A DNA stretch of 64,000 nucleotides from assembly GCF_037975245.1 (NCBI RefSeq), contig NC_092569.1:22286168-22350167 (forward strand), read 5' to 3'. Position numbers and translations under genes: made by a program. The first letter of the stretch is position 1, and every line of letters starts with the position of its first letter. This stretch comes from Apostichopus japonicus (taxonomy: Eukaryota > Echinodermata > Holothuroidea > Aspidochirotida > Stichopodidae). Positions 1 through 61,432 of the stretch are shown here, one piece after another. A model generated the notes under the pieces. That model worked only from the letters and a program-made list of their open reading frames with translations, was not told the DNA's origin and searched no databases.

Positions 1-1099
1 GTACTTACGGAGACTATATGTGCAATGCATTCACTGGTGTTGCCTTTGTCCAATCGATGCAACTAAATTGTGTACTTACGGAGACTATATGTGCAATGCA
101 TTCACTGGTGTTGCCTTTGTCCAATCGATGCAAACTAAATTGTGTACTTACGGAGACTATATGTGCAATGCATTCACTGGTGTTGCCTTTGTCCAATTGA
201 TGCAACTAAATTGTGTACTTACGGGGACTATATGTGCAATGCATTCACTGGTGTTGCCTTTGTCCAATTGATGCAACTAAATTGTGTACTTACGGAGACT
301 ATATGTGCAATGCATTCACTGGTGTTGCCTTTGTCCAATCGATGCAACTAAATTGTGTACTTACGGAGACTATATGTGCAATGCATTCACTGGTGTTGCC
401 TTTGTCCAATCGATGCAACTAAATTGTGTACTTACGGAGACTATATGTGCAATGCATTCACTGGTGTTGCCTTTGTCCAATCGATGCAACTAAATTGTGT
501 ACTTACGGAGACTATATGTGCAATGCATTCACTGGTGTTGCCTTTGCCCAATCGATGCAACTAAATTGTGTACTTACGGAGACTATATGTGCAATGCATT
601 CACTGGTGTTGCCTTTGTCCAATCGATGCAACTAAATTGTGTACTTACGGAGACTATATGTGCAATGCATTCACTGGTGTTGCCTTTGCCCAATCGATGC
701 AACTAAATTGTGTACTTACGGAGACTATATGTGCAATGCATTCACTGGTGTTGCCTTTGTCCAATCGATGCAACTAAATTGTGTACTTACGGAGACTATA
801 TGTGCAATGCATTCACTGGTGTTGCCTTTGTCCAATCGATGCAAACTAAATTGTGTACTTACGGAGACTATATGTGCAATGCATTCACTGGTGTTGCCTT
901 TGTCCAATCGATGCAAACTAAATTGTGTACTTACGGAGACTATATGTGCAATGCATTCACTGGTGTTGCCTTTGTCCAATCGATGCAACTAAATTGTGTA
1001 CTTACGGAGACTATATGTGCAATGCATTCACTGGTGTTGCCTTTGTCCAATCGATGCAACTAAATTGTGTACTTACGGAGACTATATGTGCAATGCATT
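1..1099 (-). repeat. 71-bp minisatellite made from a VPS28 exon end and splice donor (main block)
   Basis: About 15 full units plus a 30-bp partial, nearly identical, mostly 71 bp; a few are 72 bp because of one extra A. On the minus strand each unit is 41 bp of VPS28 exon 5 sequence (coding [14 protein letters not shown]) followed by GTAAGTACAC and 20 further intronic bases. Every unit therefore carries a consensus donor but no acceptor. Variants are single-base (for example TTTGCCC for TTTGTCC). The 72-bp units keep the frame open, so short repetitive ORFs appear in several frames; these are not genes. The array continues off the left edge, so its length is unknown. Confidence 0.95.
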
Positions 1100-1694
1100 T
1101 GTAAGTTTAGGGGTTTTCTGTACTGGCGTGCCCTCCCAAAAGTATGATGACTCAGGGGAGAGAAGTTGTAAAGATAACGCAGGAACAAAAGATTAACGGT
1201 AACTTGAAGGATGTAATAACAATTAACTGGAACAACGGTATACTTGAATAGTTTAACAACAATTAATTAGAACAACGATATACTTGAATAGTTTAACAAC
1301 CATTAACTAGGACAACGGCTTACTGGAATCATTTAATAACTTAAACAACTAACTATAAAATATAATTTACTTACAAGCTCACTTCCCACATACAGTATAA
1401 CTCAAACGTACTCACAAGTGTTGGCCGGTCAACCATGCATCCTTATTCTCTGCCTCATTCATTCGCTCTCCCAAACATTTTCAAATACAAGAAAGTTCTC
1501 TCACACCACACGCACACACTCACACAAGTTACACGCACGCAACACAATCAGCGCGCCGCGCCCGATACATTTAAAAACCTCCGTACGTAATTAAGCAGCG
1601 ATGCATCGATACAAGCGCACCATAGCCTAACGCTACACTATATACATGTACGCCCACACAAGAATACGCCTATCGTATTAATCGCTCATTTACA
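1100..1694 (-). repeat. LTR copy 1 (3' LTR)
   Basis: A 595-bp LTR. Its outer end abuts satellite sequence at GCATT. The inner end is preceded on the minus strand by the polypurine tract. A further remnant of LTR end plus polypurine tract lies at 1749-1779, which indicates that the 3' end was duplicated. Inside the LTR is a degenerate approximately 42-bp triplet around TATACTTGAATAGTTTAACA. Confidence 0.9.
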
Positions 1695-2152
1695 CTCTTT
1701 CCACCTGAAACGCAGACTTCTTCTGAAGTCTAAAAAATAGTCAATCTTTATTAATCGCTCATTTACACTCTTTCCACCTGAAACACAGACTAAACATAGT
1801 CACATTCCTCACTACCTAGAAGGTGGTAGGTACTTATGCCTAGACTTAGACAGCCAGTTTGACTCAAAGTCCTTCTCTCTCAAACGGAGCTCGAGTCCGT
1901 AACAATTGTAGTAATCGAGATCAGCCACTTCTTATCAAACTCCACCTAAAAGGACTACTTAAAATAAAAAAATTCAAAATTTCATAAATAACCACAACAC
2001 CGCATGCGTCGTGTATGGGCGCACACATATGAACAGCTCTTCAGGTCTATGGCAAATCTGCATCGATGCATCAGAAAATAATCCTATATATATAATTTGT
2101 AATTTGTCTTGAAAATTGTCACACATTCTGAATAAACTAATCAATGAGCTAA

Positions 2153-3069
2153 TTAAACCCACCCCAGGTCAAAGACAGTGGTGTCCGTACCGATTGCATT
2201 AGTTCCAAAACGAGGCGGTGGAACTCCTTTATTACCCCTTTCGGATCTTCTTATTTGAGTAGAATTTGTTATATTCTCAACCGCATTTTCTTGTGGCTTT
2301 TTCTCTTCGATCTTCTTGATTGGCCTCCTCCAAGTATATAGTGGATGCATGACTTCTTCTTTTTCTTTTTCTTTCAGGTCGGGGACGTTTAATTTTCTAT
2401 CATCATCCGGTTTCATGTCTTCCTGGAAGGTGCACAATTTCAGCTCGTTTCTGTGGATTACTCGTTCCTTTCCTTTTCCATTCTCAGGAAGTATCGCATA
2501 TACTGGTATGTCCGGGTTAGGTTGCTTTGCTACGATGTAGACATCCTCCTCCCACTTATCTTGGATTTTGCATCTCCCCCTGACTTTCCTGTTTCTAACC
2601 AAGACTCGTTCTCCCGGGATAAGCAGATGCGTTCTCAGTCTTTGGTTGACTGCTTTCTTCTGTCTCTGTGCCGCTCTGTCCAGATTATCCCTGACATGGT
2701 TGAAGGCACTTACGTATTTCCTGTGATGTTCTTGGACCCAACTGTCATATGCTCCAGCAGTTGGTATTGGCTGTTTTTCATCACTTCCTTTTATCATAAA
2801 ATCCACAGGTAGACGAGCATGCCTACCAAACATCAGAAAGAATGGAGTATAACCAGTTGAAGCATGGACAGTGTTATTGTAGGCATGGATGACTTCTGGA
2901 AGATGCTCCGGCCATTTCTGTTTTTGTTCTGGTGGCAGGGTTCCTAGTAAGTTGAGAAGCGTTCTGTTCATCCTTTCGCACTGGCCATTACCGGCAGGGT
3001 GATAGGGTGTAGTGTGACATTTCTTGATACCATACATAGAACAAAGTTCTTGTATAGGACAGTTGTTAA
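2153..3069 (-). pseudogene. Retrotransposon integrase, C-terminal half
   Basis: The reading frame is open from the LTR junction at 3069 to a stop at about 2153. It begins inside the catalytic core, so its first methionine (3037) is not a real start. Recognisable are GIKKCHTTPYHP, then GNGQCERMNRTLL holding the catalytic glutamate of the DDE triad, the YNNTVHASTGYTPFFLMFGR segment typical of Ty3/gypsy integrases, and a GPY/F-like C-terminal module (KWEEDVYIV). The zinc-binding N-terminus and the two catalytic aspartates are missing, replaced by LTR copy 2. It cannot act alone. Confidence 0.9.
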
Positions 3070-3664
3070 TGTAAGTTTAGGGGTTTTCTGTACTGGCGTG
3101 CCCTCCCAAAAGTATGATGACTCAGGGGAGAGAAGTTGTAAAGATAACGCAGGAACAAAAGATTAACGGTAACTTGAAGGATGTAATAACAATTAACTGG
3201 AACAACGGTATACTTGAATAGTTTAACAACAATTAATTAGAACAACGATATACTTGAATAGTTTAACAACCATTAACTAGGACAACGGCTTACTGGAATC
3301 ATTTAATAACTTAACCAACTAACTATAAAATATAATTTACTTACAAGCTCACTTCCCACATACAGTATAACTCAAACGTACTCACAAGTGTTGGCCGGTC
3401 AACCATGCATCCTTATTCTCTGCCTCATTCATTCGCTCTCCCAAACATTTTCAAACACAAGAAAGTTCTCTCACACCACACGCACACACTCACACAAGTT
3501 ACACGCACGCAACACAATCAGCGCGCCGCGCCCGATACATTTAAAAACCTCCGTACGCAATTAAGCAGCGATGCATCGATACAAGCGCACCATAGCCTAA
3601 CGCTACACTATATACATGTACGCCCACACAAGAATACGCCTATCGTATTAATCGCTCATTTACA
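3070..3664 (-). repeat. LTR copy 2 (internal, joined to the truncated integrase)
   Basis: A 595-bp LTR with a polypurine tract on its inner side (3665-3676). Its outer end abuts the middle of the integrase core at GTTAAT, with no target duplication matching the far side of the right LTR. The junction therefore looks like template switching or recombination and not an independent insertion. Confidence 0.88.
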
Positions 3665-3848
3665 CTCTTTCCACCTGAAACGCAGACTTCTCCTGAAGTC
3701 TAAAATAATTTAATACGATATTGAAATAAAATCTTGAATAAAATTCGCTAACAACTTTACTTGTTTACTTTTCTTTTAACTAAAATTACGTACGTGCCTC
3801 TGCGAAATCTTTAAAACTAAGCCAGTACTCCAACACTTCTGACACCAA
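3665..3848 (-). mobile_element. 184-bp internal region of an LTR-LTR mini-element
   Basis: Between LTR copies 3 and 2 only 184 bp remain, with a primer-binding site at one end and a polypurine tract at the other, and no coding capacity. Copies 3 and 2 together with this core have the layout of a non-autonomous deletion derivative (TRIM/SMART-like in organisation, though the LTRs are longer than usual). The short inverted repeat AGACTTC...GAAGTCT lies beside the polypurine tract. Confidence 0.7.
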
Positions 3849-4443
3849 TGTAAGTTTAGGGGTTTTCTGTACTGGCGTGCCCTCCCAAAAGTATGATGAC
3901 TCAGGGGAGAGAAGTTGTAAAGATAACGCAGGAACAAAAGATTAACGGTAACTTGAAGGATGTAATAACAATTAACTGGAACAACGGTATACTTGAATAG
4001 TTTAACAACAATTAATTAGAACAACGATATACTTGAATAGTTTAACAACCATTAACTAGGACAACGGCTTACTGGAATCATTTAATAACTTAACCAACTA
4101 ACTATAAAATATAATTTACTTACAAGCTCACTTCCCACATACAGTATAACTCAAACGTACTCACAAGTGTTGGCCGGTCAACCATGCATCCTTATTCTCT
4201 GCCTCATTCATTCGCTCTCCCAAACATTTTCAAATACAAGAAAGTTCTCTCACACCACACGCACACACTCACACAAGTTACACGCACGCAACACAATCAG
4301 CGCGCCGCGCCCGATACATTTAAAAACCTCCGTACGTAATTAAGCAGCGATGCATCGATACAAGCGCACCATAGCCTAACGCTACACTATATACATGTAC
4401 GCCCACACAAGAATACGCCTATCGTATTAATCGCTCATTTACA
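3849..4443 (-). repeat. LTR copy 3 (5' LTR)
   Basis: A 595-bp LTR followed on the minus strand by the primer-binding-site-like sequence at 3848-3834. The end in satellite DNA is TTACA followed by CTTTCACTGG. It differs from copy 1 at about one position by eye. Confidence 0.9.
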
Positions 4444-4567
4444 CTTTCACTGGTGTTGCCTTTGTTCAATCGACGCAAACTAAATTGTGTACTTACGGAG
4501 ACTATATGTGCAATGCATTCACTGGTGTTGCCTTTGCCCAATCGATGCAACTAAATTGTGTACTTAC
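4444..4567 (-). repeat. 71-bp minisatellite, head of the array next to VPS28 exon 5
   Basis: A partial unit, one full unit and the start of intron 5 lie between the LTR retrotransposon (ends 4443) and the authentic exon 5. They belong to the same array as 1-1099. The unit next to the retrotransposon is the most diverged (TTTGTTCAATCGACG). Removing 1100-4443 and one 4-bp flank rejoins the repeat sequence GCATTCACTGG, so the block was split by insertion. Confidence 0.93.
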
Positions 4568-4669
4568 CGAGACTATATGTGCAATGCATTCACTGGTGTT
4601 GCCTTTGTCATCCTTGATCGTAATAGGTCTGTCTTCTTTGATACGCTCAATGGCGGCAGAACAACTCAT
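4568..4669 (-). CDS. VPS28: VPS28 exon 5, parent of the 71-bp satellite
   Basis: This exon reads [15 protein letters not shown] then [19 protein letters not shown] in phase 0 and ends at TCG before the donor GTAAGT. Its last 41 nt plus the first 30 nt of the intron are the 71-bp unit that is tandemly repeated downstream (4567-4444 and 1099-1). The true exon differs from the repeat units at its last base (TCG here, TCC in the units), and upstream it has GATGACAAAGG where the units have GATTGGACAAAGG. So this is the authentic copy, at the upstream end of the array in the direction of transcription. Confidence 0.9.
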
Positions 4670-7600
4670 CTGAGAACATTAAATACAACCAAAGAGAAAA
4701 AGAAGATATTTAATTCTGTTGATATTTTCCTCTAAAAGTTGCAAGTCACATCTTGTGTACTGTTATATACAGGGTCACAACCATTATTTTGTACTGGGTG
4801 TGGGGTGGGAGGGGGGAGCTTAGATGTTTTGTCATCCAGGGGATGGGATGCAGACTAAGATTGGCTAATGGCCATTAAGTATGTTGTCTCACATGTTTCT
4901 TTCGAACTCTGACTTTGTTGAGTATTATTTATCTACATCTTTGTCAAGAAAGACGACTGGTGGCAAGGACCTTTGCGGCATACACAATTTAACAGCAATT
5001 GTTGTATTCGAGAACCATGGAGCCTCTTTTTACACGAACCTCTTTTGCTTTCAGACTATTTGGAGAGATGTGATGCATCTATCCCAGCAAATTAGATAAA
5101 AATGTGTCATTGTTTTCTGAGCTACTGTGGATTCCAAGGTGTCCCGAAAGATCTGTGTAAAATTCAAAACCTACCCAGTACCCAACAGCAAATATTAGCA
5201 GAACATCGATTAAAGTTGATGGGTCATGTTTACCTCAGCCAATCCTTATTGCAGAAAGACATAAATTCTGGACCGCCACAAACGGTGAGAACAAATATAG
5301 ATATACTAAACACTGTTATACTGAAAAATATTAGTGCTTATTGCACACTTGGGTCATTCTTAATTCACCATGTTATAGCTGAAATAAACACCAAAATGGC
5401 AACAAAACACACCAAAAACGAGAAAAAAACAATGCGTGTACTATCGATGGCTGACCTAACTTTTGACAAGGCTGGGAGCAAATGTCTGGTAGAGGAAATG
5501 ACATCTATTGCTACCATTGAACTAAGTTATTAGTACTAGGACATTGTACAGACTATACATAACATGAACTTTCCCTCAGGACCCATGAATGGCAGAGGCT
5601 CTAACAAATGTTTTAACATCTTCCCAAGCCTACCTACATCCTGTCAACCCTACCCCACATACTGACGACCCACTATTAAAAATCAAAGACAGGGTATTCC
5701 CATGGCTGGTAATGACCTGTTTAATTCTCCTACCCTACCCCACATCCTGACCCACTATTAAAAATCAAAGACAGGGTATTCCCATGGCTGGATAATGACC
5801 TGTTAAATTCTCCTACCAACCCTACCCCCCATCTTGACCCATTATTAAAAATCAAAGACAGGGCATTCCCGTGGCTGGATAATGACCTGTTGAATTCTCC
5901 TGCCAACCCTATCCTGCATCTTGAAGACCCACTCTTATAGCAGCTTTTTGCATTTTGTCATCCTTTTCCCACCCATTTGACATGTCCATCGAGTTTTTTC
6001 ATGTATTCATCACAAAACAGCAAACTAAGATATTGGCCAAGTATTTTCCTTGTCTGGAGCGTTAATTGGCGAGTAATTAAGGACTTCTGCAGGTAATGAG
6101 TAAAGTGTCATCCCACACATGGTTCTCCTTTAGCAAGATGGAACTTCCTTACCTTGTATTTTTTCACAAAGTCTTCCACTGTATGTATTTGTTCACTCTG
6201 TACTAGTTTGAAGGCTGCTTTGTATTGGACTAGCAACTTGGAGCAAGCTGCAGTATATCTGGAAAAACAAAATAGAAGAAACGATGGAACACATGCAAAT
6301 GTAGATAATGCCCAAATCCCCCCTCTTCTTCTCCTCCCCCCTCTCTTTCTCCTCCCCCCTCTGGTTCTCCTCCCCCTTTCATTCTCCTCCCCCTTCTGGT
6401 TCTCCCCCTTTGGTTCTCCTCCCCCCTCTGGTTCTCCTCCCACCTCTGGTTCTCCTCCCCCCCTCTGGTTCTCCTCCCCTCTTGTTCTCCTCTCCCCTCT
6501 CTTTCTCCTCCCCCCTCTCATTTTCCTCCCCCCTCTGGTTCTCCCCCTCTGGTTCTCCTCCCCCCTCTGGTTCTCCTCCCACTCTCGTTCTCCTCCCCCC
6601 TCTCATTCTCCTCCCCCCTCTTGTTCTCCTCCCCCCTCTCCTTCTCCTGGCCCTCTGCGGATGTACACTGTACTTCCACAAATTTCATAAATTACTGATA
6701 TATGCATACAGTATATAAATCTTTGCTCTTGAAATCCCTTTCAGATACAATGAAGCAATTCCCTGATCTGAGATTATTTACATTATTTACTGTGATGGTT
6801 CAGTTTACAAACTACTGTTCTACTTAAGTTAATACTAGTATACACATAATACACTCAGGAAGGACCATGCAAAAGGCATACATGTACACATAACACAGTT
6901 TAATACCATGCACATTAATTACGACCTCCTTTCATGTGTTTGAAAGTCACATCGCATCAAGCTGATTGTCAGACAAACTGCAACATTTCTCTGACGGCAT
7001 TGATTCTTCATTCTCTGAATTATTAAGTAGTTTATTTTAGTAGAAAAAAGGGATCAGGAGGGACACTCAAGTCCCCATCAGGACCTTATAGGAGAGAAAA
7101 AAAACTGAAGCTCTAGTGTCGTGATTTTCAAGAGATGTGACCGCCTATAATAAGGAACACTCTTTAAGGAACTAATCATCCTAGTAGCCCTCCACTGGAC
7201 CTTTTCAATTACTTCCTTATCCTTAGCAAAATATGGGTTACAAGCCTGCACAGCATACTCCAGCTGAGGCCTAACCAACTGATTATAAAGCCTAAGTAAG
7301 TTGTCCTCTTTCAGAAAACTGACGTTCCGCTTGATCATACCTAAAATCCTATTAACCCTTTAAGCAGCTCAAGACAAAGTTTAGAAGGTTGCAGAGATGA
7401 GTCAATGTAGATACCAATGTGGAAGAATGAGAATAAGATGAGAGAAAGGACTTGCAAATTTTGTTTGAAGGGAAAATACAGCAAATGCCGCGCTTGTTGT
7501 TAGAATACATACTCTTTGGGTGTTAAAGCATCTCTTATGTAAGCTTTTTCCAACCACTGCAGCGTGTTCAAGACTGCAAATAATTCAGCCATATTGTCAT

Positions 7601-9671
7601 ACTTCTCACGTTCTCTCACATTCCGGAAGAGTTTGACTTCCTGTAAAACAAATATAAATCAACAAAAATCTGATTAATGAAACATGAAGTATATAGGCCT
7701 ACAACCTGTCTGCTTCAAATCAAGTTTTTTATATGATTACTGATTGTCGAATATTAAACTGCATGCCAAGAGTCAGTCTTTAATGTATGCAAGACCTTCT
7801 CCATACACTGAGCACTGAAGTATTTTATGTAACCTACCCAGCAACACAACTAAAGTTTACAAGGTCTATACAGTAGCACATGGTTTGAAGTTTACTTATG
7901 GGAGAAAAGCATACTAATTTGAAACTACAGGCTCTGACCCCCCCCCCCCCCCGGCATATATTGATGTGAACATATAATACAGTATAACACCATTAAAAGC
8001 ATTCATTTGGCACGGATTTTCCTCAAAGTTTGTTTGGAAAAACAATGTTTCCTTAAAAAATTTACAATATGCTCTAAACTATTTTCAAATATAGAAACTA
8101 TAGACTGTAGTGCAATAAGGTAATGAATTCCCCTTCATGAAGTAGCAGCCCCCACCCTCCAACCCCATCAGTTGTGCCCTAAACACAAAGGAGATCAGTA
8201 TTATGTTTTTGCCCAATAGGCAATAATTTCCTATTTTCCATAAACCGCAAGGGTCCCAAAGGTTGTACACGACTACACGTATGTCAAGATGTTTTCATAG
8301 TCTTCTGAGGTAACAAGAAAGCATTAATAGGTAATTTGGAGAAGTCTGATGAATTGTGGAATATCATATTAAAGCACCAAATACTCCTTCATTTCCACTA
8401 GATGCCTATATATAAAAAAATAGGAAGGAAAGAGAAGAGTTAATGTGAGGAAGAATAACGTAATTTTCACTAACCTCAAACAGTTCTGGTCGGTTTGCAG
8501 GATCTGAAATTTAAAATGTGGAAAAAGAATTTATTCTTGGTCATTCACTACCAAAACTGTTGTCTAAACTTCTACCTTTGCACCATCCTCTAGAGATAGT
8601 TGTATGGTGGTGAATGGTAACTTTTGAGTGTACCCTCAATTCATATATTATTATGTTATAATACATATGTAGTTGTACTGATAGCCACTGTAGTTACTAT
8701 GATTGTAAGTCAATTTGTGACCACTTCATCGATCACACTTTTAATCTATACAGCCATAACAGAAATAGCCAAATTGGCACAATGAAACATCATACTTTTA
8801 TTTTGAGACACTTTCTTGAATTATTCCACTCATTTTATGGAATTATTCAGTAAACCTCAATGCACATGAAAAGTTGTGGAATTTGTTTTTCCATTAATTA
8901 GGAAGGTGAATAATAAGTTACATTGGCCAGATATACACTTCTTCATAGCTCCCAACTCTTGAGAAGGTAAATGCTGGTCCATGCCACGAATTGCTGTCCT
9001 TTTGAATTTTTATGGAATCCTGGTGATGCCTACATGTAAAATGGTGGCACTTAGAAAGGCTTTTGTCACCCAAAATTTTGTGAGAAATATGCATTTTTTT
9101 GTGTGTAACAGCAATAAATTGATTAGTAGATGATGAATCATTCTTTCCTGTGGCATGAAAATGTTCGCTGCTAGCCCCAATGAAAAGAAATATAGGCTAA
9201 TTTGAGGTTCAAATGATACTGTATAGGAGGTTTTATACTCTATTATGCTAAATGCTAAAGAAATGATGGTTGCCAAGTCAAAATTTGATGCATTTTTTTT
9301 TAAGTATACTTGCAAAATTACAATGCGGGTTTTTCGGACGCTTTCGCGGGTCAGCGTGTTAGACTGCGGGTCCAACCCGCGAATTGCGGGTCAGTTGGGA
9401 GCTCTGCTACTTTCTCTTCTATCAGTTGCACAGAAATAAAACGATAAGCTTACAAGTTAAAGTACCCACTATTTATACCGGTTCCACGACTAGGCTATAA
9501 TATGGCTACATCCGACAATTTCGTAGCAGTTACAGTAACACAGCATCATCACATTCGCATCCTCATGTAGAATTTCACATGAAATGCTTATTTGGAAATG
9601 TAAGAAAACATTATTAGCTATTGAAGTTACTTACTTGTAGGTGTTTGATTCTGGGCGACTCCGGAGAACAT
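4568..9671 (-). CDS. VPS28: VPS28, ESCRT-I subunit (N-terminal 134 residues; 3' exons off the left edge)
   Basis: VPS28 is a core subunit of ESCRT-I, which sorts ubiquitinated cargo into multivesicular bodies. Five coding exons are seen on the minus strand: 9671-9635, 8503-8475, 7640-7513, 6258-6153 and 4669-4568. Their lengths (37, 29, 128, 106, 102 nt) keep one frame, with acceptor CAG at introns 1-4 and donors GTAAGT, GTTAGT, GTATGT, GTAAGG, GTAAGT. Diagnostic stretches are NRPELFE then EVKLF (exons 2-3), [14 protein letters not shown] (exon 3), [16 protein letters not shown] (exon 4) and [18 protein letters not shown] (exon 5), all matching the VPS28 N-terminal core that binds TSG101 and VPS37. 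Start chosen at the ATG giving MFSGVAQNQ, which matches the family's short N-terminus. About 85 residues, including the C-terminal four-helix domain that contacts ESCRT-II, should lie beyond position 1. Intron 5 is filled by a minisatellite and a retrotransposon. Recognition is secure; expression is not shown. Confidence 0.93.
4670..6152 (-). other. VPS28 intron 4
   Basis: This holds two open frames on the opposite strand (4881-5099 and 5102-5533, 72 and 143 codons) that resemble no family I recognise and have no splice or codon support. It also contains the approximately 90-bp tandem repeat at 5640-5935. No exon of VPS28 appears to be missing here, because exons 4 and 5 join in phase 0. Confidence 0.6.
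5640..5935. repeat. Approximately 90-bp tandem repeat, three copies
   Basis: Three imperfect copies built around CACTATTAAAAATCAAAG and GGTATTCCCATGGCTGG. Length changes between copies break any reading frame, so it is treated as a non-coding minisatellite. Confidence 0.75.
6310..6655. repeat. Pyrimidine/purine minisatellite in VPS28 intron 3
   Basis: Plus strand consists of repeats of CTCCTCCCCCCTCTGGTT with length variants. On the VPS28-sense strand this is GGGG/GGAGGAG-rich and begins about 50 nt upstream of the exon 4 acceptor (6259-6261). Strand asymmetry of this kind can form triplex DNA or RNA G-quadruplexes. Long proline/serine-rich or arginine/glycine-rich frames here are by-products of the repeat. 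Confidence 0.85.
7060..7360 (-). mobile_element. CR1-like LINE fragment (RT C-terminal end) in VPS28 intron 3
   Basis: The frame 7338-7078 contains [18 protein letters not shown] and [12 protein letters not shown], the conserved post-RT block of CR1/BovB-like non-LTR retrotransposons. It is short, with no catalytic motifs, and lies in the same strand as VPS28. Degenerate fragment. Confidence 0.8.
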
Positions 9672-11400: not shown

Positions 11401-25344
<13,944 letters not shown>

Positions 25345-45691: not shown

Positions 45692-45739
45692 TCGTCAGGC
45701 TCAAAGTCAAATTCCACCGCATCAAGTGTATCAAGGATC

Positions 45740-48700
45740 TTATGATTCAGTCAGTGGACATCCATCTGTCAGGGGTGTAGTCAGTATTAACCCCAGGGTC
45801 TTAGCATTGAGTCAGTGGACATCTATCTACCAGGGATGCAATCAGAATTAACCCCAGGGTCTTAGCATTGAGTCAGTTGACATCTGTCTACCAGGGATGC
45901 AATCAGAATTAACCCCAGGGTCTTAGCATTGAGTCAGTTGACATCTATCTACCAGGGATGCAATCAGAATTAACCCCAGGGTCTTAGCATTGAGTCATTT
46001 GACATCTGTCAACCAGGGATGCAATCAGAATTAACCCCAGGGTCTTAGCATTGAGTCAGTTGACATCTATCTACCAGGGATGCAATCAGAATTAACCCCA
46101 GGGTCTTAGCATTGAGTCAGTTGACATCCATCTACCAGGGATGCAATCAGAATTAACCCCAGGGTCTTAGCATTGAGTCAGTTGACATCTATCTACCAGG
46201 GATGCAATCAGAATTAACCCCAGGGTCTTAGCATTGAGTCAGTTGACATCCATCTACCAGGGATGCAATCAGAATTAACCCCAGGGTCTTAGCATTGAGT
46301 CATTTGACATCTATCTACCAGGGATGCAATCAGAATTAACCCCAGGGTCTTAGCATTGAGTCAGTTGACATCCATCTGTCAGGTGTGTAGTCAGAATTTA
46401 CCCCAGGGTCTTAGCATTGAGTCAGTTGACATCTATCTACCAGGGATGCAATCAGAATTAACCCCAGGGTCTTAGCATTGAGTCAGTGGACATCCACTGG
46501 TCAGGGGTGTAGTCAGTATTAACCCCAGGGTCTTAGCATTGAGTCAGTTGACATCCATCTTTCAGGTGTGTAGTCAGAATTTACCCCAGGGTCTTAGCAT
46601 TCAGTCAGTGGACATCCATCTTTCAGGTGTGTAGTCAGTATTAACCCCAGGGTCTTAGCATTGAGTTAGTGGACATCTACCTGTCAGGTGTGTAGTCAGA
46701 ATTTACCCCAGGGTCTTAGCATTCAGTCAGTTGACATCCATCTTTCAGGTGTGTAGTCAGAATTTACCGCAAGGTCTTAGCATTGAGTCAGTGGACATGC
46801 ACTTGTCAGGGGTTTAGTCAGAATTTACCGCAAGGTCTTAGCATTGAGTCAGTTGACATCCGTCTGTCAGGGGTGTAGTCAGAATTAACCCCAGGGTCTT
46901 AGCATTGAGTCAGTTGACATCTATCTACCAGGGATGCAATCAGAATTAACCCCAGGGTCTTAGCATTGAGTCAGTTGACATCTATCTACCAGGGATGCAA
47001 TCAGAATTAACCCCAGGGTCTTAGCATTGAGTCAGTTGACATCTATCTACCAGGGATGCAATCAGAATTAACCCCAGGGTCTTAGCATTGAGTCAGTTGA
47101 CATCCATCTTTCAGGTGTGTAGTCAGAATTAACCCCAGGGTCTTAGCATTGAGTCAGTTGACATCCATCTGTCAGGGGTGTAGTCAGTATTAACCCCAGG
47201 GTCTTAGCATTGAGTCAGTTGACATCTATCTACCAGGGATGCAATCAGAATTAACCCCAGGGTCTTAGCATTGAGTCAGTTGACATCTATCTACCAGGGA
47301 TGCAATCAGAATTAACCCCAGGGTCTTAGCATTGAGTCAGTTGACATCCATCTTTCAGGTGTGTAGTCAGAATTAACCCCAGGGTCTTAGCATTGAGTCA
47401 GTTGACATCCATCTGTCAGGGGTGTAGTCAGTATTAACCCCAGGGTCTTAGCATTGAGTCAGTTGACATCTATCTACCAGGGATGCAATCAGAATTAACC
47501 CCAGGGTCTTAGCATTGAGTCAGTTGACATCTATCTACCAGGGATGCAATCAGAATTAACCCCAGGGTCTTAGCATTGAGTCAGTTGACATCTGTCTACC
47601 AGGGATGCAATCAGAATTAACCCCAGGGTCTTAGCATTGAGTCAGTTGACATCTGTCTACCAGGGATGCAATCAGAATTAACCCCAGGGTCTTAGCATTG
47701 AGTCAGTTGACATCTGTCTACCAGGGATGCAATCAGAATTAACCCCAGGGTCTTAGCATTGAGTCATTTGACATCTGTCAACCAGGGATGCAATCAGAAT
47801 TAACCCCAGGGTCTTAGCATTGAGTCAGTTGACATCCATCTACCAGGGATGCAATCAGAATTAACCCCAGGGTCTTAGCATTGAGTCAGTTGACATCTAT
47901 CTACCAGGGATGCAATCAGAATTAACCCCAGGGTCTTAGCATTGAGTCATTTGACATCTATCTACCAGGGATGCAATCAGAATTAACCCCAGGGTCTTAG
48001 CATTGAGTCAGTTGACATCTATCTACCAGGGATGCAATCAGAATTAACCCCAGGGTCTTAGCATTGAGTCAGTGGACATCTATCTACCAGGGATGCAATC
48101 AGAATTAACCCCAGGGTCTTAGCATTGAGTCAGTGGACATCTATCTACCAGGGATGCAATCAGAATTTACCCCAGGGTCTTAGCATTGAGTCAGTTGACA
48201 TCTATCTACCAGGGATGCAATCAGAATTAACCCCAGGGTCTTAGCATTGAGTCAGTTGACATCCATCTGTCAGGTGTGTAGTCAGAATTAACCCCAGGGT
48301 CTTAGCATTGAGTCATTTGACATCTATCTACCAGGGATGCAATCAGAATTAACCCCAGGGTCTTAGCATTGAGTCAGTTGACATCTATCTACCAGGGATG
48401 CAATCAGAATTAACCCCAGGGTCTTAGAATTGAGTCAGTGGACATCTATCTACCAGGGATGCAATCAGAATTAACCCCAGGGTCTTAGCATTGAGTCAGT
48501 TGACATCTATCTACCAGGGATGCAATCAGAATTAACCCCAGGGTCTTAGCATTGAGTCAGTTGACATCCATCTACCAGGGATGCAATCAGAATTAACCCC
48601 AGGGTCTTAGCATTGAGTCAGTTGACATCTATCTACCAGGGATGCAATCAGAATTAACCCCAGGGTCTTAGCATTGAGTCAGTTGACATCTATCTACCAG

Positions 48701-48788
48701 GGATGCAATCAGAATTAACCCCAGGGTCTTAGCATTGAGTCAGTTGACATCTATCTACCAGGGATGCAATCAGAATTAACCCCAGGGT
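45740..48788. repeat. 61-bp satellite array downstream of RAE1
   Basis: About 50 tandem copies of a 61-bp unit with CCCAGGGTCTTAGCATTGAG. Two main variants alternate: one with CTACCAGGGATGCAATCAG and one with TTTCAGGTGTGTAGTCAG or GTCAGGGGTGTAGTCAG. Some stretches show a higher-order period of four units (for example the TTTCAGGTGTG variant at 47110 and again 244 bp later). Non-coding, and not a CRISPR array because no spacers are present. Confidence 0.97.
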
Positions 48789-53236: not shown

Positions 53237-54352
53237 CCCTCGACAGCATGATCCAGCTATGCCCTTTAAACAGCTGAACGCAGCAAACAAGGACGTCACG
53301 TGACTTCCTTCTTATAGACGCTCGTGAATACCGCTTTATATTGGCAATGCACAACTAAAATAAATATCCCTGCGTCTTATAGCATAATGATGTTGATAAG
53401 AAATATTACCCGATGTTACACAAATGCCACGCATAAGCTGCAAAATGGCAAACGGTGCGTTTACGGACGAATGTGGATTATGATATAGGCCTAGTTAACT
53501 TTTGAACGCATTCAATTTAATCTGTTATGAATATTGTGATTGCATCACGGTTTATCTAACATGTAATTTGTGATTGATTATAAAAATGTACGGAAATATC
53601 CTGCACTGTTTCTGCTACAATTTGCGAAGCGACGATGCGTAATAAAAGTATTCTCTCGCTCCTTCCCATCGTTGAATATTCATATAAAATTTCGACAATT
53701 AAGAAATTTGTATTGTCTGACATGCATTATATTAAAATATAAAAGGTAAGCCTATACCTGAACAAAATATAGCAGTTATCGAACAGACTATATTGTCATG
53801 GGAACGAGTGTCTGCCGTGTTGCAAGTAATTCAAGTTTGTGATTCATAAGTACGTGCCTTGTGAAGATAGAACGTTCAGGTACTAATTAGATTGGATGAT
53901 TACGAATCGTATGCATCTTATAAGATAGAGAAAGGCCTTTTACGCGTATCTTATCACAAATCTAATTTGATAACAGCCTGATATGATCATCATTTGCAAT
54001 AAGTATATAACATTGCTTAAAATCACTCTACTAATTTTTTTTTTTGAATTGGAAATACGACACTGAAATGTTATCTTGGTACCAGCAAATTAACGGACAC
54101 TCTTGGCAAAGCCTGTCTACAAATCGGCCTTTCACTACTCTTTTTTTGTTTGTCTCTTAATTATTTCAATCTCATTTGCTGCTACTAACTTTGCGCCAAT
54201 CTATGGATCGCTTTCACATGGATAACACAAATGTTAAATTGTAACATTCCTCTCAACCCAGACAACGCAGAGTAGTTGCGATTTTCCAACAAAGACTGGG
54301 TGTGGCCATTTTTTCTTCACTTTCCGCTGGATTTTAAACATTCAATCCTGAC

Positions 54353-55333
54353 ATGGATGAACTTCATCAGAGCTTTATCAACGACGAGTACAACACGGTC
54401 GGGACATCAACCCCAAATCCTCCTCCTATAAACGGATCGCAATTTGCTTTTTATTTGAGCCAGTTACTTCTTCTTTTGATAAGTCTTGTGGCACATTTTC
54501 TGGCAATTATTACAATGCGAAGAGTAAAACGAGAGCGAGAAATGCTCGATGCTGCCGATGAATACATGGATGTACATACATTATTATTCAAAGCGCTTCT
54601 CAGAGTTGATTTGAGCGCCACCTTGTTTTTCTTATGCCGCGCTTTACTTGCTCCTACACCTCTCTTCTCTGATAACAGTTTCAGGTGTACGGTCGACAGC
54701 AGTAGTGGGATATTTTTCTCTCAGATGTCAGGTTTAATCAACATTCTTCTCTTTCTGGAGAGGGTCTTGTCATTAAGGACGCCATATCTTTATAGAAGAC
54801 ACGCAACGGCATTCAAAGCCAAAATAGCTGTGACTTGCATGGTTTTCTTTGGATTGTTCGTCTGTCTTCTACCCGTGTTTGGGTTCGGATCTTATCACGT
54901 TGAAATAGATGGCGGTATCCTGTGTCTCTCCCCTGGTGATGTGCACCTCTCGCAGTCCAAACATCACATTCACTTTACCATTGTATTCTTGACGGTGGGA
55001 TTTTGTATCATTCTAAGCATTGTACTGGGAAACATTGTAGTCATTTATTACGTCATCCGTCTCCGACAAGTAGCACCATTAGATTATGCAAATCAGGTCT
55101 CGATACAACCAATTGACACCGCAAATGATCACCCAGGTGTCGATGCAAACAACGACTTGAGGGATGTACCTGTCCCTAGCTTGCAGCTAAATGATGACAA
55201 GATGTCGAACGGGGGAAACCAACGTCAAAATCCGACATTGAAGCTAGCAGTTAAGTTCAGCAGAGAAGTCGGCACTGCGTTAGCTCTCATATGTGTTTCA
55301 ATCGCGTATATGATTTCTTGGATCCCGCTTTAT
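54353..55333 (+). CDS. Prostanoid-receptor-like GPCR, exon A (TM1-TM6)
   Basis: Codes 327 residues of a class A GPCR and stops in phase 0 after SWIPLY at a GTAAGT donor. TM1 about 30-55, TM2 76-98, TM3 113-137, TM4 153-175, TM5 205-232 and TM6 304-327 are clear hydrophobic segments. There is an NGS glycosylation site in the N-terminus, a TM3 cysteine (FRCTV) and an ECL2 cysteine (GGILCLSPGD). ER replaces DRY in LERVLSLRTPYLY. LLPVFGFGSY in TM4 and the intron at the end of TM6 are typical of prostanoid receptors, which signal through G proteins to cAMP or calcium. Ligand not shown. TM7 is absent; if not spliced, translation would end after VSLFIN at 55354. No TM7 exon is visible before exon B. 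Confidence 0.85.
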
Positions 55334-57709
55334 GTAAGTTTGTTTATTAACTAAGAATGTTTGTCTTTCCCTGTCATCCTTTTCAATGTATTTCATCTTT
55401 AGTTGTAAAAGATTTTCCAAAAAAAGAAGAAATGCTAGGGCCTCCACCAGCCACCCTAACCCCCACCCCACCCCAACAGCTATGATACAGAGTTTCATTG
55501 CAAGGGACTGACCGTTTTAATTCAAAATTAGGCGATTTTGTGATTCCCTCAACTCATTAGCTTTTAACTTCTCGGACATAAATGATCTAAATAGTATGCC
55601 ATATGGATATTCTCCTCATTTTCTTTCATTACCTTAAACGAGTTGGTTATATAAGCCTGCGGTACGCTATCCTAATGGATCGTGGATCGTCGGGTTGCAT
55701 GTGTTTGGCTTAAGACTATACGACTGGCCAACACTTTGCTAGTTTATAGTCGCGTCTGGTGCAGTCTGGAAAATTGAAAAATGGAGCGTTTTTTTTGACT
55801 GGCGGTCGACAACATGCGGCGGCTTACGAAAAAAAAACAAAATGCACAATGTTAATGAATGAAGCCAATCACGGGAATATAATACGTTTACATATATGAC
55901 ATGAAATGAGCAACGGCCGATGACGGAATAAATTCGTTGTGTGTCGTCAACAATTCGTCCATTGTACACTGGTCAGTTGTAAGAACATTGGGTTATCGTA
56001 AACGTGACCACTACGGTCGAGTTGAGTCAAGTCGCGTTCACTCTCGGCTGAAAACTGGCAAACTCTATATCAGCTGGCGTAGTGAGAGTACAGGTTTTTA
56101 CGCCTCAATAGAAATCTAGCCAACAACGGTGCTGTCGTGATCACTTGGGGCAGTATGAGGCCGATGTATAGCGGTATGGTTCGTCACCTGTAGAAAGTGT
56201 CCGGCCGGATCTTATTTGCTAAGGAAATAATTTTCGGCCGGACTAAATATCCTCGTTTATGCGCTCCGCAAAAGATACCATTAGATAAATGGCTCCGATT
56301 TTATTTCGCTGATCTAACATAATAAAGTCTTGTTCAGTCGGGGAGTCTACTCTTTTGTAAGTTTATATTCGAAAACCATTACACAAATAGGAAATAATTT
56401 CCCGTTGGAAATACGCGAACGTTCACCGAAGTTATTAATCGCTGAATCCCTAACAAACCCTGTATCTAATAACGTATATACCTCGTGATAGTTATCAATT
56501 AAGTCCGACCTGACCAGCCTTACAACATTTTCCGGGCGGACAATTTTGCGGGGGGACAAAATTTACTATGACGTGAGAAATCAAGTTGGTTTATTTTGTC
56601 TGGCCGGACATATTTCCCTGGTTAAAACTGTCCAGCCGGATATTATCTACAGAGGGAACTATTTATACTTACATCGGTGTAACGCACTCGACGTCTTGCA
56701 ACCACTGTCTTTTCTGATAGCCAATGACAGAGCGTATAATTGAAGGTATGTGTGATATATATTACCAACAGACAAAACAGTTTTACCTAGTTCAATGAAA
56801 AAGAAATTCAAGAAAGATAACGGAGAAAAAAGGGAAAGACACGTCACGTGACAAGTATCACGGTACGTTTTTGCAATGCATAACATCGATGCGAGCACGT
56901 CTGTAGGTATGTGTTATGCATATAGTCTGTAAAGCGATAACTAGTGTATTCACCGATAGAATAGATAAAAATAGGTAAGAGGTGAAATTGCTTTGGTCGA
57001 CGCTCAGAGATAACACTCACGACCCGTGGACACCTACGCAGAATAATACATTGATTCATGGTTATACCGTTTCTTTCAAGAAAAACAAAACTCGCGCAAA
57101 CAAAACATAACGCAAAACAAAGTATATTTGACCAAATCTGTAAAAAAGACAAAATCAATCAAAGGCAAATGGAAACTTCATGACAGTGGAAAATGTTAAA
57201 ATGAGTTTGCAAGTAGCAAAACCACATCGGTAGCGACACATTGCATTGAACATAAATTTAAATCATGGAATCAAACTGAATTTCAACATATTTATACTTG
57301 AATAATTTTTCTCCTCATTCTCTTTCTCATTCACTGATCTCTATTAAGTATTTACTAGTTGCTTATTGCCTGTCACAGTGCATACATTTATTGTTTGTCA
57401 AAGACTTAAACTCAATGAAAGATATTAACCCGCCGCGAGATTAGGTATGGTTTTACGATTATATAATTTACTTTCATGTAATTATATATGTATATGAAAT
57501 GACATAAACCTTCATCAACTTTCGATAAACATATGACGAACGTATGACGTGTATGTAAACTCACTTTCTTTTGCATTCCGTCTCTCGCACCATAAGTTTT
57601 CGTTGCCATAGCAACATGCTATATTTTACAATATGTTAATTTTTCATCTTGCAGTATATGCATCATTTTATTGAATCAACCTTCTTTTACAGCATTTCAG
57701 CTAACACAT

Positions 57710-57784
<75 letters not shown>

Positions 57785-58562
57785 TTATATATTAATTTGA
57801 TTACAATCCATTTCAGTCCGGAACCGAAGAACATGGAAGTAAGTAAATATGTCGTTCGAATGAACAAAAGACATATACATTGTTATTACATTTCACTGAC
57901 TTGTTGTTGGCGTTTCTTTTTGCTCCCGTGACATATTTTCAATCATTTCCCTTTGTTTAGGGCATATTGAGTTCTACTTTTTTCTCATTTCGTAACTTTT
58001 GCTAGGTTCAGCTATATTTCCAACTATAAAAATTTGCTAGCTTTCAGAAAGAAAGTCTTCGTCGATCTCTGCATACGTAAATAACAGAAAAGAAGGCGGC
58101 GCTTTGGTTATATTTTCATTGCATACACAACTTCTTGATAATAGAAGTGTTCAGAGGTTCCTGAATTTTATTTTTCAACCAGTCCGTTATTTATCGGTAG
58201 GCCTATTATTATGTTGGTGTACTGGAAACGCTTTAACAGGAACCGTACGTGGTGAATTCATAATTCTGAGAGAGAGATCCTACACATCCGCATCGGTGAA
58301 TGAAGTATTGTGACGTTCAGCATTCTCATGACAATATCAACACTCCTTTCTAACATTTTGTTGTTGACTTTCTGTTAATTTCTTTTGGGTATCGAAAGGC
58401 TCGGAGACGCTTTAACAGGGACTGTGCTTGCTGTACTAAAGTCTCATATTTCTGAAGTAGCCTACATGCCTCGTTTATTCATACATATATACTCCAGAAG
58501 CATCCAAAGGTATATGTAAAGAGTTTCTTTGTATCTCAACAAACGCGAAGGAAACCACGATC
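55334..58562. other. Between receptor exons A and B: no TM7 exon found
   Basis: Scanning both strands I find no segment coding an N/D-P-x-x-F/Y TM7 helix. It contains an (AT)n tract at 57714-57778 and several CCGGCCGGA-like motifs at 56200-56640. Short open frames have no family resemblance. Confidence 0.6.
57714..57778. repeat. (AT)n microsatellite
   Basis: About 65 bp of AT in the intron between receptor exons A and B. Confidence 0.95.
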
Positions 58563-59483
58563 ATGTCTTTTTTCGATGTCTTGGTTCTAATTGTAGTATA
58601 CTTATGGTTGTATGGTACTATTATCCTTGGTTTGGTGATTCATATACTTGCACTGATTGCGTCCCATTACAGTAAAAAATATTCTACCGTTGATGGCCAG
58701 TCTCCTCGTCAAACACTCCCAATATTTCTTTTCAAGTCCCTGTTAACGATTGATTTCTCTGCTCTTATTGTCTCCTTAATGCAAGGTATACTTCGTCCAA
58801 TTTTTAGGAGGTGGGAATTCTTTTGCGACGTTTCAATAGCTGCCAGCATTTATTTTTTGTGGATTTCTGGTTTCTTGAATATTTTAATGTTTCTAGATAG
58901 ATGTTTAGTTCTAATGGCTCCGTATACATACACCAACGTCGCAACCCTGGCGAAAGCTAAAATGGTAGTAACTACCTTAGTGATAGGGACATTCGGCCTG
59001 TGCTGCCTTCCGATGGTGGGCTTTGGATCTTACAAGATAAAACTGAATGGAACATATAAGTGTGTTGCCCCTGGTGATTTGCACCTGGTCGACTCGAAAA
59101 CTCAAGTCTATTTTACATGGATATTTCTGTTATTAGGGTTAGTGATAATGTGCAGTATTCTGTTAGGAAATTCAATTCTGATCTACAAAGTCCTACAATG
59201 GAGTAAATCTAAACCTGTCCTTGGTGAAGTCAATAGTTTTACCCGGTCCACGACGGATGGTCCATCAGCAGCAAGTACTAGCATCGTAAATGCCCCCGAA
59301 AGAGGGACCAAACTTCCAGAAAGTTTTCCGAAAAGTGGGGAAGACCTTGCAGTTCGTGATGACTCGAAACGAAATCCAAGGATTGTCATTGGGAGTGCTA
59401 AGAAGACTAATGAGGACCGGAGGCATATTTTCGTTCTCATTGTTGTATCTGTTGCCTACATGGTTTCATTGATTCCGTTCTAT
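58563..59483 (+). CDS. Prostanoid-receptor-like GPCR, exon B (TM1-TM6)
   Basis: Codes 307 residues paralogous to exon A and ends in phase 0 after SLIPFY at a GTAAGT donor. Shared marks include FFCDV in TM3, LDRCLVLMAPYTY (DR at the DRY position), AKAKMVVTT, LPMVGFGSY in TM4, GTYKCVAPGD in ECL2 and LLGNSILIYKVL in TM5. The N-terminus is very short, going straight into TM1 from MSFFDVLVL. The third intracellular loop is long and Ser/Thr-rich (about 215-285). Without splicing, the frame would close after VSYTHQLFVM at 59516. The family match to exon A is by motif, not alignment. It probably joins the TM7 exon at 61433. Confidence 0.85.
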
Positions 59484-61432
59484 GTAAGTTATACTCATCA
59501 GCTGTTTGTCATGTAGTGGACATTTATTGTAGCAGTGAGATTTGACATCTATCATGTGTGGTATAATATCAAGAGAATGTTTTGTGACTGTCGAAATTCA
59601 TATAAATATGCTTCACATCATACACGATCGGTGAAAGCTTTAATTTATTTTAATTTCAGTTTACTTAACTCTACATTATCCTTTCTTGTGGAAGGACAAA
59701 GTGTCCTCTATGAGTCAAAAAAAAAACAAAAAAACTCAAGTATAAGCACTAGCCACGACACTTCTTATAAAAGTAAACATTCCGAAGGGTACAAGAAATT
59801 TAAAAACAATTTTGTGAATATATAAAATAACAGAAATGTCTTTGTGTTTTAAGAGTTGGCTCCATTTCAAGATATTTGAATGTCTGGTATAATAATTTTT
59901 AAAATAAATTCTATAGTTCTGTACCAAAGAGCTCACATCGGAATCGCTTCTTCGCCAGTCTTTCCGCTGTGACTTAACTTAAAAGCCTCTCAAATTAAAT
60001 ACATCTCCGGACAAACATGGGCAGCTTAGAGTTCACACAGTGTATCTTCGGAGCTTCAATAATTGATCATGAATTCATGTAGGGTCAAAAAGAGTTTTCC
60101 TATACGTATACACGCACATTTATATTTTTCTTATAAAATGCACAAATACAAACAAACACACCCATATACCATGAAAATACATCGAGATGATGGATGGAGT
60201 TTCATTTTAAGCCGATTAACCACTTTAACCATGAATTGACAACGCTTCAAACTACAATTATTTAAATTAGTCTGGATTTCCTTTCTATATTTGATCGCAT
60301 GAATGAACCGTCAAATTGATCAAATTACTCATGTCTGTTTAAGTGATAATTCCTGATGTTGAAATAGTCTTCCGCCCATTTACCTTTTGCAGGATTTTAG
60401 ATCGCGGCACTGTGGTGACCGTATTTATTAAGTAATAGGCAATAAATCAAAAGAGAGAGAGATACAGAAAGGTTAAGAGAGAGATATAGAGGAGGAGGGA
60501 GGGGGGGGGGGGGGGGAGATCGTGACTTGCTCTTGATGGATGGCTTACTCCCTTGAAGAATGCTTTAAAAGGTATTTTTGAGGATGAGGTCACCCGAAAG
60601 TATGAAAGCATTGTACAAGGTACTGCCTATCACATGAATTAGTAGAATTATGTCACAGATTTTAAGAAGTTTAAGAAGTAAAAAGATATTCACAAATTAA
60701 TCCATCCGTTGATAGATCTATGCTATATTATCTCTGTTTTGTCAGTTGTTCGGAATGTTAATTCAGCATATGATGTAATGTATATCGGATTACGTAAAAC
60801 GGATAACGCTTTATTTAATCTGTATTTTTGCGATATGCATGAAGAATAAGGGAAATGTCACGGAAAGTGAGGTGGGGTGTATTACAACGTCAATGCAAAA
60901 TACAGCTTATGTTAATTGTTTAGTAAGTTCATATTTTATCTAAACTGCCTATTCAGTTTATCATTTCCTCCTATTGAATATACTCCACATAAAGTTAGGA
61001 AATAAAGATTCTTTCATTTGCCTATAATGTTCGTTTTTATGATTCGTTTGTATTGATTGTGTAAACGTTTGTTCAAAATAATGGTTAAAACGATGTATTT
61101 GCGATCTATGGATCGCAAGTTGAGTTTCTTTGGCAAACACTCATTTTTCTTTTGGCTCACATCCCCTAGTGTATAAATGAGGACAAGTTGTGGACGCCCG
61201 ACCAGATTATGGGTTGCATCCTATATAGGGTATGTCCTCCAAGGTATACATACGTGTGGCTCACTGCAGTGCCGGGGGAATGGTTCTTTGAATTGTGCGC
61301 ACTTCGGTGTATGGGTGTAACAAGTTGTACCAATGAGCAGGGTAAATTCATACGAGAGGACTTATATGCCTTGATCCAAAACTGCTAACCTGCATTTTCA
61401 ACTATTTCTATTGTTTGTTTTCATCTTCGTAG
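59484..61432. other. Intron between receptor exon B and the TM7 exon
   Basis: No coding segment recognised. It includes a GAGA/poly-G patch (60450-60520). 61150-61250 has weak SINE-like words (AGTGTATAAATGAGGACA) that I do not call. Confidence 0.5.

Follow-up and report, generated by a model that had tools for sequence, protein, structure and literature searches.

The sea cucumber Apostichopus japonicus carries, on the minus strand of a 64,000-nucleotide stretch of contig NC_092569.1 (C9:22286168-22350167; hereafter the window), a VPS28 gene in which the 3′ end of a coding exon (~42 nt), together with 29-30 nt of the next intron, forms a tandem repeat with a period of 71-72 bp. We consider it highly likely that this array is a mirage minisatellite, that is, a tandem duplication of the VPS28 exon end and its 5′ splice site that expanded within the intron, with the authentic donor in use and little or no effect on splicing. 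As in a mirage, the repeat unit spans an authentic exon-intron boundary and the splice signal recurs in the units, GTAAGT being present in 19/19 repeat copies (copies found by pattern search). With splicing at the authentic donor, the reading frame of the gene model stays open.

The gene was identified from its translated exons (Table 1). The translation of exons 2-5 matched Pfam VPS28 at 2.7e-30 and the VPS28 chain 6vme_E, which we take to be human, at 2.2e-48, confirming that segment 4568-4669 is VPS28 coding sequence, as had been proposed in an earlier model-made reading of the window (the original prediction). Exons 2-6 form one continuous translated frame; exon 7 was translated separately, and by inspection its frame suits a codon split by the junction. 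The authentic donor of exon 5 joins IVS to LFITAMDRLRL of exon 6 in phase 0, a conserved join. When the entire genome (35 contigs, 671.58 Mb) was searched with Pfam VPS28, three matches were obtained, all of them within this gene, in its exons 3, 6 and 7; the TAA reported in one of them lies just beyond the exon 6 donor and is intronic by inspection. VPS28 is conserved, and single-copy in this genome. The exon numbers are provisional, as no first coding exon was located and the model starts from exon 2. A VPS28 protein search, restricted to proteins of ~67-214 aa and listing the best 120 of 873, did not show the animal's own protein, an absence that carries no weight within these limits. In a partial VPS28 record from the blue tit, Cyanistes caeruleus (P0001), a 30-residue segment (YDNMAELF...TPNE) occurs twice, perhaps through a duplication made in the gene model or the assembly. 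Two other minisatellites, both without repeated donor signals, lie in introns of the gene, one in intron 4 (87 bp x 3.2, window 5645-5924) and one in intron 6 (70 bp x 4.7, positions 6496-6820 of L009, the stretch adjoining the window on the left). No paper covering both A. japonicus and VPS28 was found in the open-access literature.

Table 1. Features of the VPS28 locus in window coordinates; negative coordinates extend the window numbering leftwards, position 0 included, and a slash marks the splice junction.
Feature	Position	Strand	Remarks
VPS28 exon 2	8475..8503	-	gene model
VPS28 exon 3	7513..7640	-	gene model; Pfam VPS28 match in genome-wide search
VPS28 exon 4	6153..6258	-	gene model
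VPS28 exon 5 (provisional number)	4568..4669	-	102 nt, 34 residues; acceptor tctcag, donor TCG/GTAAGT
VPS28 exon 6	-1116 to -971	-	outside window; starts LFITAMDRLRL
VPS28 exon 7	-3824 to -3710	-	outside window; gene model
Authentic 5′ splice site GTAAGT	4562..4567	-	G at -1 (TCG/GTAAGT)
First repeat donor	4491..4496	-	C at -1 (TCC/GTAAGT)
In-frame TAG met by transcripts using any later donor	4502..4504	-
Main array part	1..1099	-	15.4 units of 71 bp (Tandem Repeats Finder)
Exon-side array piece, including the exon's own end	4448..4609 (Tandem Repeats Finder: 4446-4607)	-	~2.3 units
Ty3/Gypsy-like long terminal repeat (LTR) element within one array unit	1100..4443	- (gene's strand)
595-bp LTRs of the element (n=3)	1100-1694, 3070-3664, 3849-4443		pairwise differences at 1 to 3 positions
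Likely target-site copies of the element	CATT 1096-1099; CTTT 4444-4447		one base different

Positions 1-4669 of the window correspond to an interrupted array, in which an LTR element splits one unit. The array runs on leftward beyond the window start and ends at about -167 (position 9501 of L009), after which L009 continues with single-copy intron sequence and then the next exons. In exon or array context 20 GTAAGT donors were found, one authentic and 19 in repeats, two of the latter (at -64 and -136) outside the window. The donor-to-donor intervals uninterrupted by the LTR element (n=18) measure 71 bp in 13 cases and 72 bp in 5, and skipping the element adds one further interval of 72 bp; the additional base of the 72-bp units is a T within the intronic part. 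The 39-nt exon core occurs at 17 places in the window (≤3 mismatches, no gaps; mean 0.00 in 100 shuffles) and the 29-nt intronic part at 13 places by the same limits (0 in shuffles). Variation between units is confined to few positions. As regards a divergence of edge units from homogenised inner ones, a trait of mirages, additional changes were seen in the exon-side unit and one change is common to two units on the intron side, but another is common to an inner pair, all in small numbers.

The satellite put forward in the original prediction, built from the VPS28 exon end and its 5′ splice site, is thus real by both the Tandem Repeats Finder units and the core matches, with some corrections. 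Its 71-bp period holds, but the unit length varies; at least 17 donors were correctly announced, but the row that they were said to form is broken by the LTR element. Nor are the copies exactly the last 41 nt of the exon. Over 42 nt the exon and the common unit disagree at a single position, the last base, where the repeat donors carry C at -1 in 19/19 cases (TCC in 18, CCC in 1) and the exon carries G (TCG).

The LTR element is younger than the array, because it splits a unit that is continuous once the element is removed, and its near-identical LTRs suggest a recent insertion. A frame of the element gave a weak integrase match (4.7e-05, under the Pfam cut-off), and its close relatives are named Gypsy or Ty3 integrases. 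For the retroelement frame at 2153-3076, 57% of the length aligns at 100% identity with the A. japonicus protein BSL78_04269 (P0122). Four further GTAAGT strings lie within the element in the orientation of the gene, and a scan of positions 1-4600 for AATAAA/ATTAAA hexamers on that strand gave seven, all of them inside the element (1337-4086). One LTR sits inside the element, giving three in a row, and a further fragment resembling an LTR end terminates at 1767.

A search of the genome with the array unit gave matches at one locus only (21/21, at C9:22286024-22290776), counts that are lower bounds as very common words were skipped. All matches being at one locus, the array does not qualify as a dispersed satellite family with arrays at several loci, and the satellite was not found elsewhere without VPS28 in this species' own genome, to which the search was confined. 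Because the unit was found at this locus only and its exonic part is conserved VPS28 coding sequence, the exon seeded the array, the direction that had originally been proposed. Further support for the exon as the source comes from the single copy of VPS28 and from its frame, since no donor but the authentic one leads it correctly into exon 6. Scans for exact 30-mers in viral and prokaryotic contig collections gave 0 matches, a result that is uninformative, near records having possibly been excluded.

The birth of the array had been attributed to slippage between GATG-ACAAAGG in the exon and GATTGG at the intron end of the unit. At the birth junction (intron end GATTGGAAGAGCAAAG) 2 bp, GA, are common to both parents, and the match around them extends to 10/12 columns, the others being a mismatch and a gap. 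Among 26-nt pairs taken at random from window 4671-9000, 9.8% reach this score; the homology is not significant, and the exact birth event therefore cannot be read from the junction.

For a baseline, other arrays were screened for repeated donors. Of 41 arrays, 2 had GTRAGT in 60% or more of their units, both of them pieces of the VPS28 array, and the 14 other arrays tested in the window contained no GTRAGT at all. These 41 arrays had a period of at least 20 and at least 2.5 copies, with overlapping rows merged and the 2.3-copy exon-side piece excluded. Besides the window, their sources were L009 and 20 sampled stretches, together 273.9 kb, with 233 bp common to the window and L009. As the 20 stretches span 0.3 to 7.34 Mb of one 37-Mb contig with exons unannotated, this baseline is too small to give a frequency of mirages.

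The strength of the donors was compared by pairing with the U1 snRNA sequence and by scores from human donor base frequencies. The authentic donor scored -10.7 kcal/mol for the U1 duplex and 4.8 bits, against -7.1 kcal/mol and 0.5 bits for the TCC repeat donors and -7.1 kcal/mol and 2.1 bits for the CCC repeat donor. This difference between G and C at -1 fits a tolerance of the array through weakened copies, although it is a single change. No convincing acceptor was found in the repeat unit, where the pyrimidine fraction ahead of any AG is at most 0.56.

When the exon frame is read on into the first repeat, it gives 21 residues and then a TAG at 4504-4502. Each of the 17 later donors within the window comes after this TAG, at whatever distance modulo 3, and the same TAG closes the frame with the LTR element skipped and covers both donors outside the window. 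As the first repeat carries the in-frame TAG, every product of a later donor is therefore truncated. In-frame isoforms with three additional units (n = 3) are ruled out by this stop, and with them the earlier expectation that three units, or units of 72 bp, would keep the frame; a tuning of VPS28 output through in-frame multi-unit isoforms is left without support. U1 small nuclear ribonucleoprotein (snRNP) is abundant, and for this reason it is implausible that the 19 sites of a single gene titrate it, a second role that had been suggested for the array.

Taken together, these data favour a mirage minisatellite with the following history. A tandem duplication would have copied the last ~42 nt of the VPS28 exon along with its 5′ splice site and the adjoining 29-30 nt of intron, and the copy would then have grown to ~19 repeats within the intron, presumably through unequal exchange or slippage. 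The spliceosome would pick the authentic exon-side donor, which offers better U1 pairing and the normal exon length, and the repeats would be spliced out with intron 5 with little or no effect. A slip to a later donor would yield a truncated mRNA that is probably targeted by nonsense-mediated decay. The array is thus probably neutral for splicing, and VPS28 probably works normally.

Several points weigh against this reading. The choice of the authentic donor is a deduction from sequence, and the donor of VPS28 exon 3 (AGA/GTATGT) falls below the repeat donors, with -0.2 bits and -4.6 kcal/mol; because a genuine donor of the same gene scores lower, the repeat donors are not dead, or too weak in principle. 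The difference of G versus C at -1 may go back to a single mutation in a founder unit and does not prove selection. Moreover, the authors of the amphioxus globin study state that the repeated signals might serve as cryptic splice sites (PMC3087553), and excerpts of a human study indicate that tandem repeats at exon-intron boundaries can yield alternative splicing (PMC2812944). A bolder view of base -1 would take the uniform C as a selected mark, with donor arrays tolerated only where the copies are weaker than the authentic site and with the shared TAG turning residual slips into a brake on VPS28 that depends on array length; we regard this as decidedly unlikely.

Among the other explanations, the array could act as a copy-number rheostat through unproductive splicing and not through in-frame isoforms, some transcripts using repeat donors, meeting the TAG and being degraded, such that the length of the array lowers VPS28 output. 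The 19 copies of GTAAGT downstream of the exon, the identical premature stop reached with each of them, the weaker genuine donor of exon 3 and the effects on splicing ascribed to the human boundary repeats would all suit this idea, as would the length instability of such minisatellites in amphioxus, reported in the excerpted text of PMC3087553. However, G at -1 is absent from 19/19 repeat donors, 18/19 of them now lie past the 3.3 kb LTR element, far outside the normal exon length, and amphioxus mirages reportedly leave splicing undisturbed (excerpts of PMC3087553 and PMC3902484), so that we give a rheostat only a slim chance. Slimmer still, in our judgement, is the chance that the repeats draw U1 to the beginning of intron 5 and thereby guard the transcript against premature polyadenylation, for example at signals of the LTR element. 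Such a telescripting-like role would suit the ability of the repeat donors to pair with U1 and the seven polyadenylation hexamers that the sense-oriented element carries. Such hexamers are, however, common by chance, and since the array predates the element, protection from the latter cannot account for the origin of the former.

An artefact of assembly is very improbable, even though assemblies are error-prone at tandem arrays. The variants differ from unit to unit, the inserted LTR element has recognisable target-site copies, and the HiFi reads published for A. japonicus (mean 14.7 kb), as described in part of PMC10344927, are long enough to span the locus; the chromosome-level assembly reported there comprises 671.60 Mb in 34 scaffolds. 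The reverse direction of events, in which the VPS28 exon captured a pre-existing satellite, is the most far-fetched of these alternatives: no point in its favour was found, the residues encoded by the exonic part are conserved in VPS28 and run on without a break into the remainder of the exon and gene, and the unit was found at no other place in the genome. The mirage minisatellite remains our preferred reading.

Other features of the window and the contig were noted in passing. Two neighbouring, long open frames (58461-59516 and 54338-55354) are of the rhodopsin-type receptor kind, and the former has one protein match only (99% identical) at E ≤ 0.001 among 4691 candidates. An exon-like frame on the plus strand at 22932-23294 matches EGF and fibrinogen C-terminal domains. 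On the minus strand, open frames at 11783-13968 resemble the tails of non-LTR reverse transcriptases, with a zf-RVT match at 11783-12169 and none for 12170-12814. A 61-bp array of ~50 copies (45734-48788) presents acceptor-like strings 39 times on the minus strand and no GTRAGT donors. A satellite of 323-324 bp, perhaps a major or centromeric one, nearly fills 2/20 of the sampled 10-kb stretches (L011, C9:670001-680000; L019, C9:3630001-3640000).

The VPS28 array belongs to a known class, the mirages, and what is new is its taxonomic occurrence. The original prediction was fair in calling satellites of this origin rarely described, but the class already had a name. According to excerpts of the amphioxus work (PMC3087553, PMC3902484), tandem repeats lie across exon-intron boundaries in Adh3, the globins BflGb6 and BflGb9, PGBD5 and troponin C, with units of 10-72 bp in Adh3 and 150-160 bp in the globins; both 5′ and 3′ boundaries are represented, and Adh3 data together with globin RT-PCR (reverse-transcription PCR) suggest undisturbed splicing. 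The Adh3 array is described as unstable in length in somatic tissue (PMC3087553, in part). Among the matches listed from the open-access literature, mirages are named only for amphioxus, with no echinoderm case. The VPS28 array resembles them in being a minisatellite-like duplication over an exon-intron boundary with splice signals in many units, and differs in its echinoderm host, its 19 copies, the common base change at donor -1 and the LTR element inside it. The phenomenon apparently extends from cephalochordates to an echinoderm, and the array is an example of a minisatellite that arose from a conserved coding exon. Moreover, its 20 near-identical donors in series, one key base apart, offer a natural experiment on how a spliceosome selects the authentic 5′ splice site.

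Two further systems are related to it. A potato gene gained an intron via a duplication crossing an intron-exon border (excerpt of PMC4974935), and in that case, as in the model for the amphioxus globins (PMC3087553, in part), a border-crossing duplication copies splice signals; the VPS28 array, in contrast, is without an evident new intron or exon, its donors lacking convincing acceptors. The variable internal tandem repeats of human segmental duplications likewise lie at exon-intron boundaries, where new introns are described as possible besides alternative splicing. Those genes are recently duplicated paralogs, as far as the excerpt of PMC2812944 describes them, whereas VPS28 in A. japonicus is a single-copy gene.

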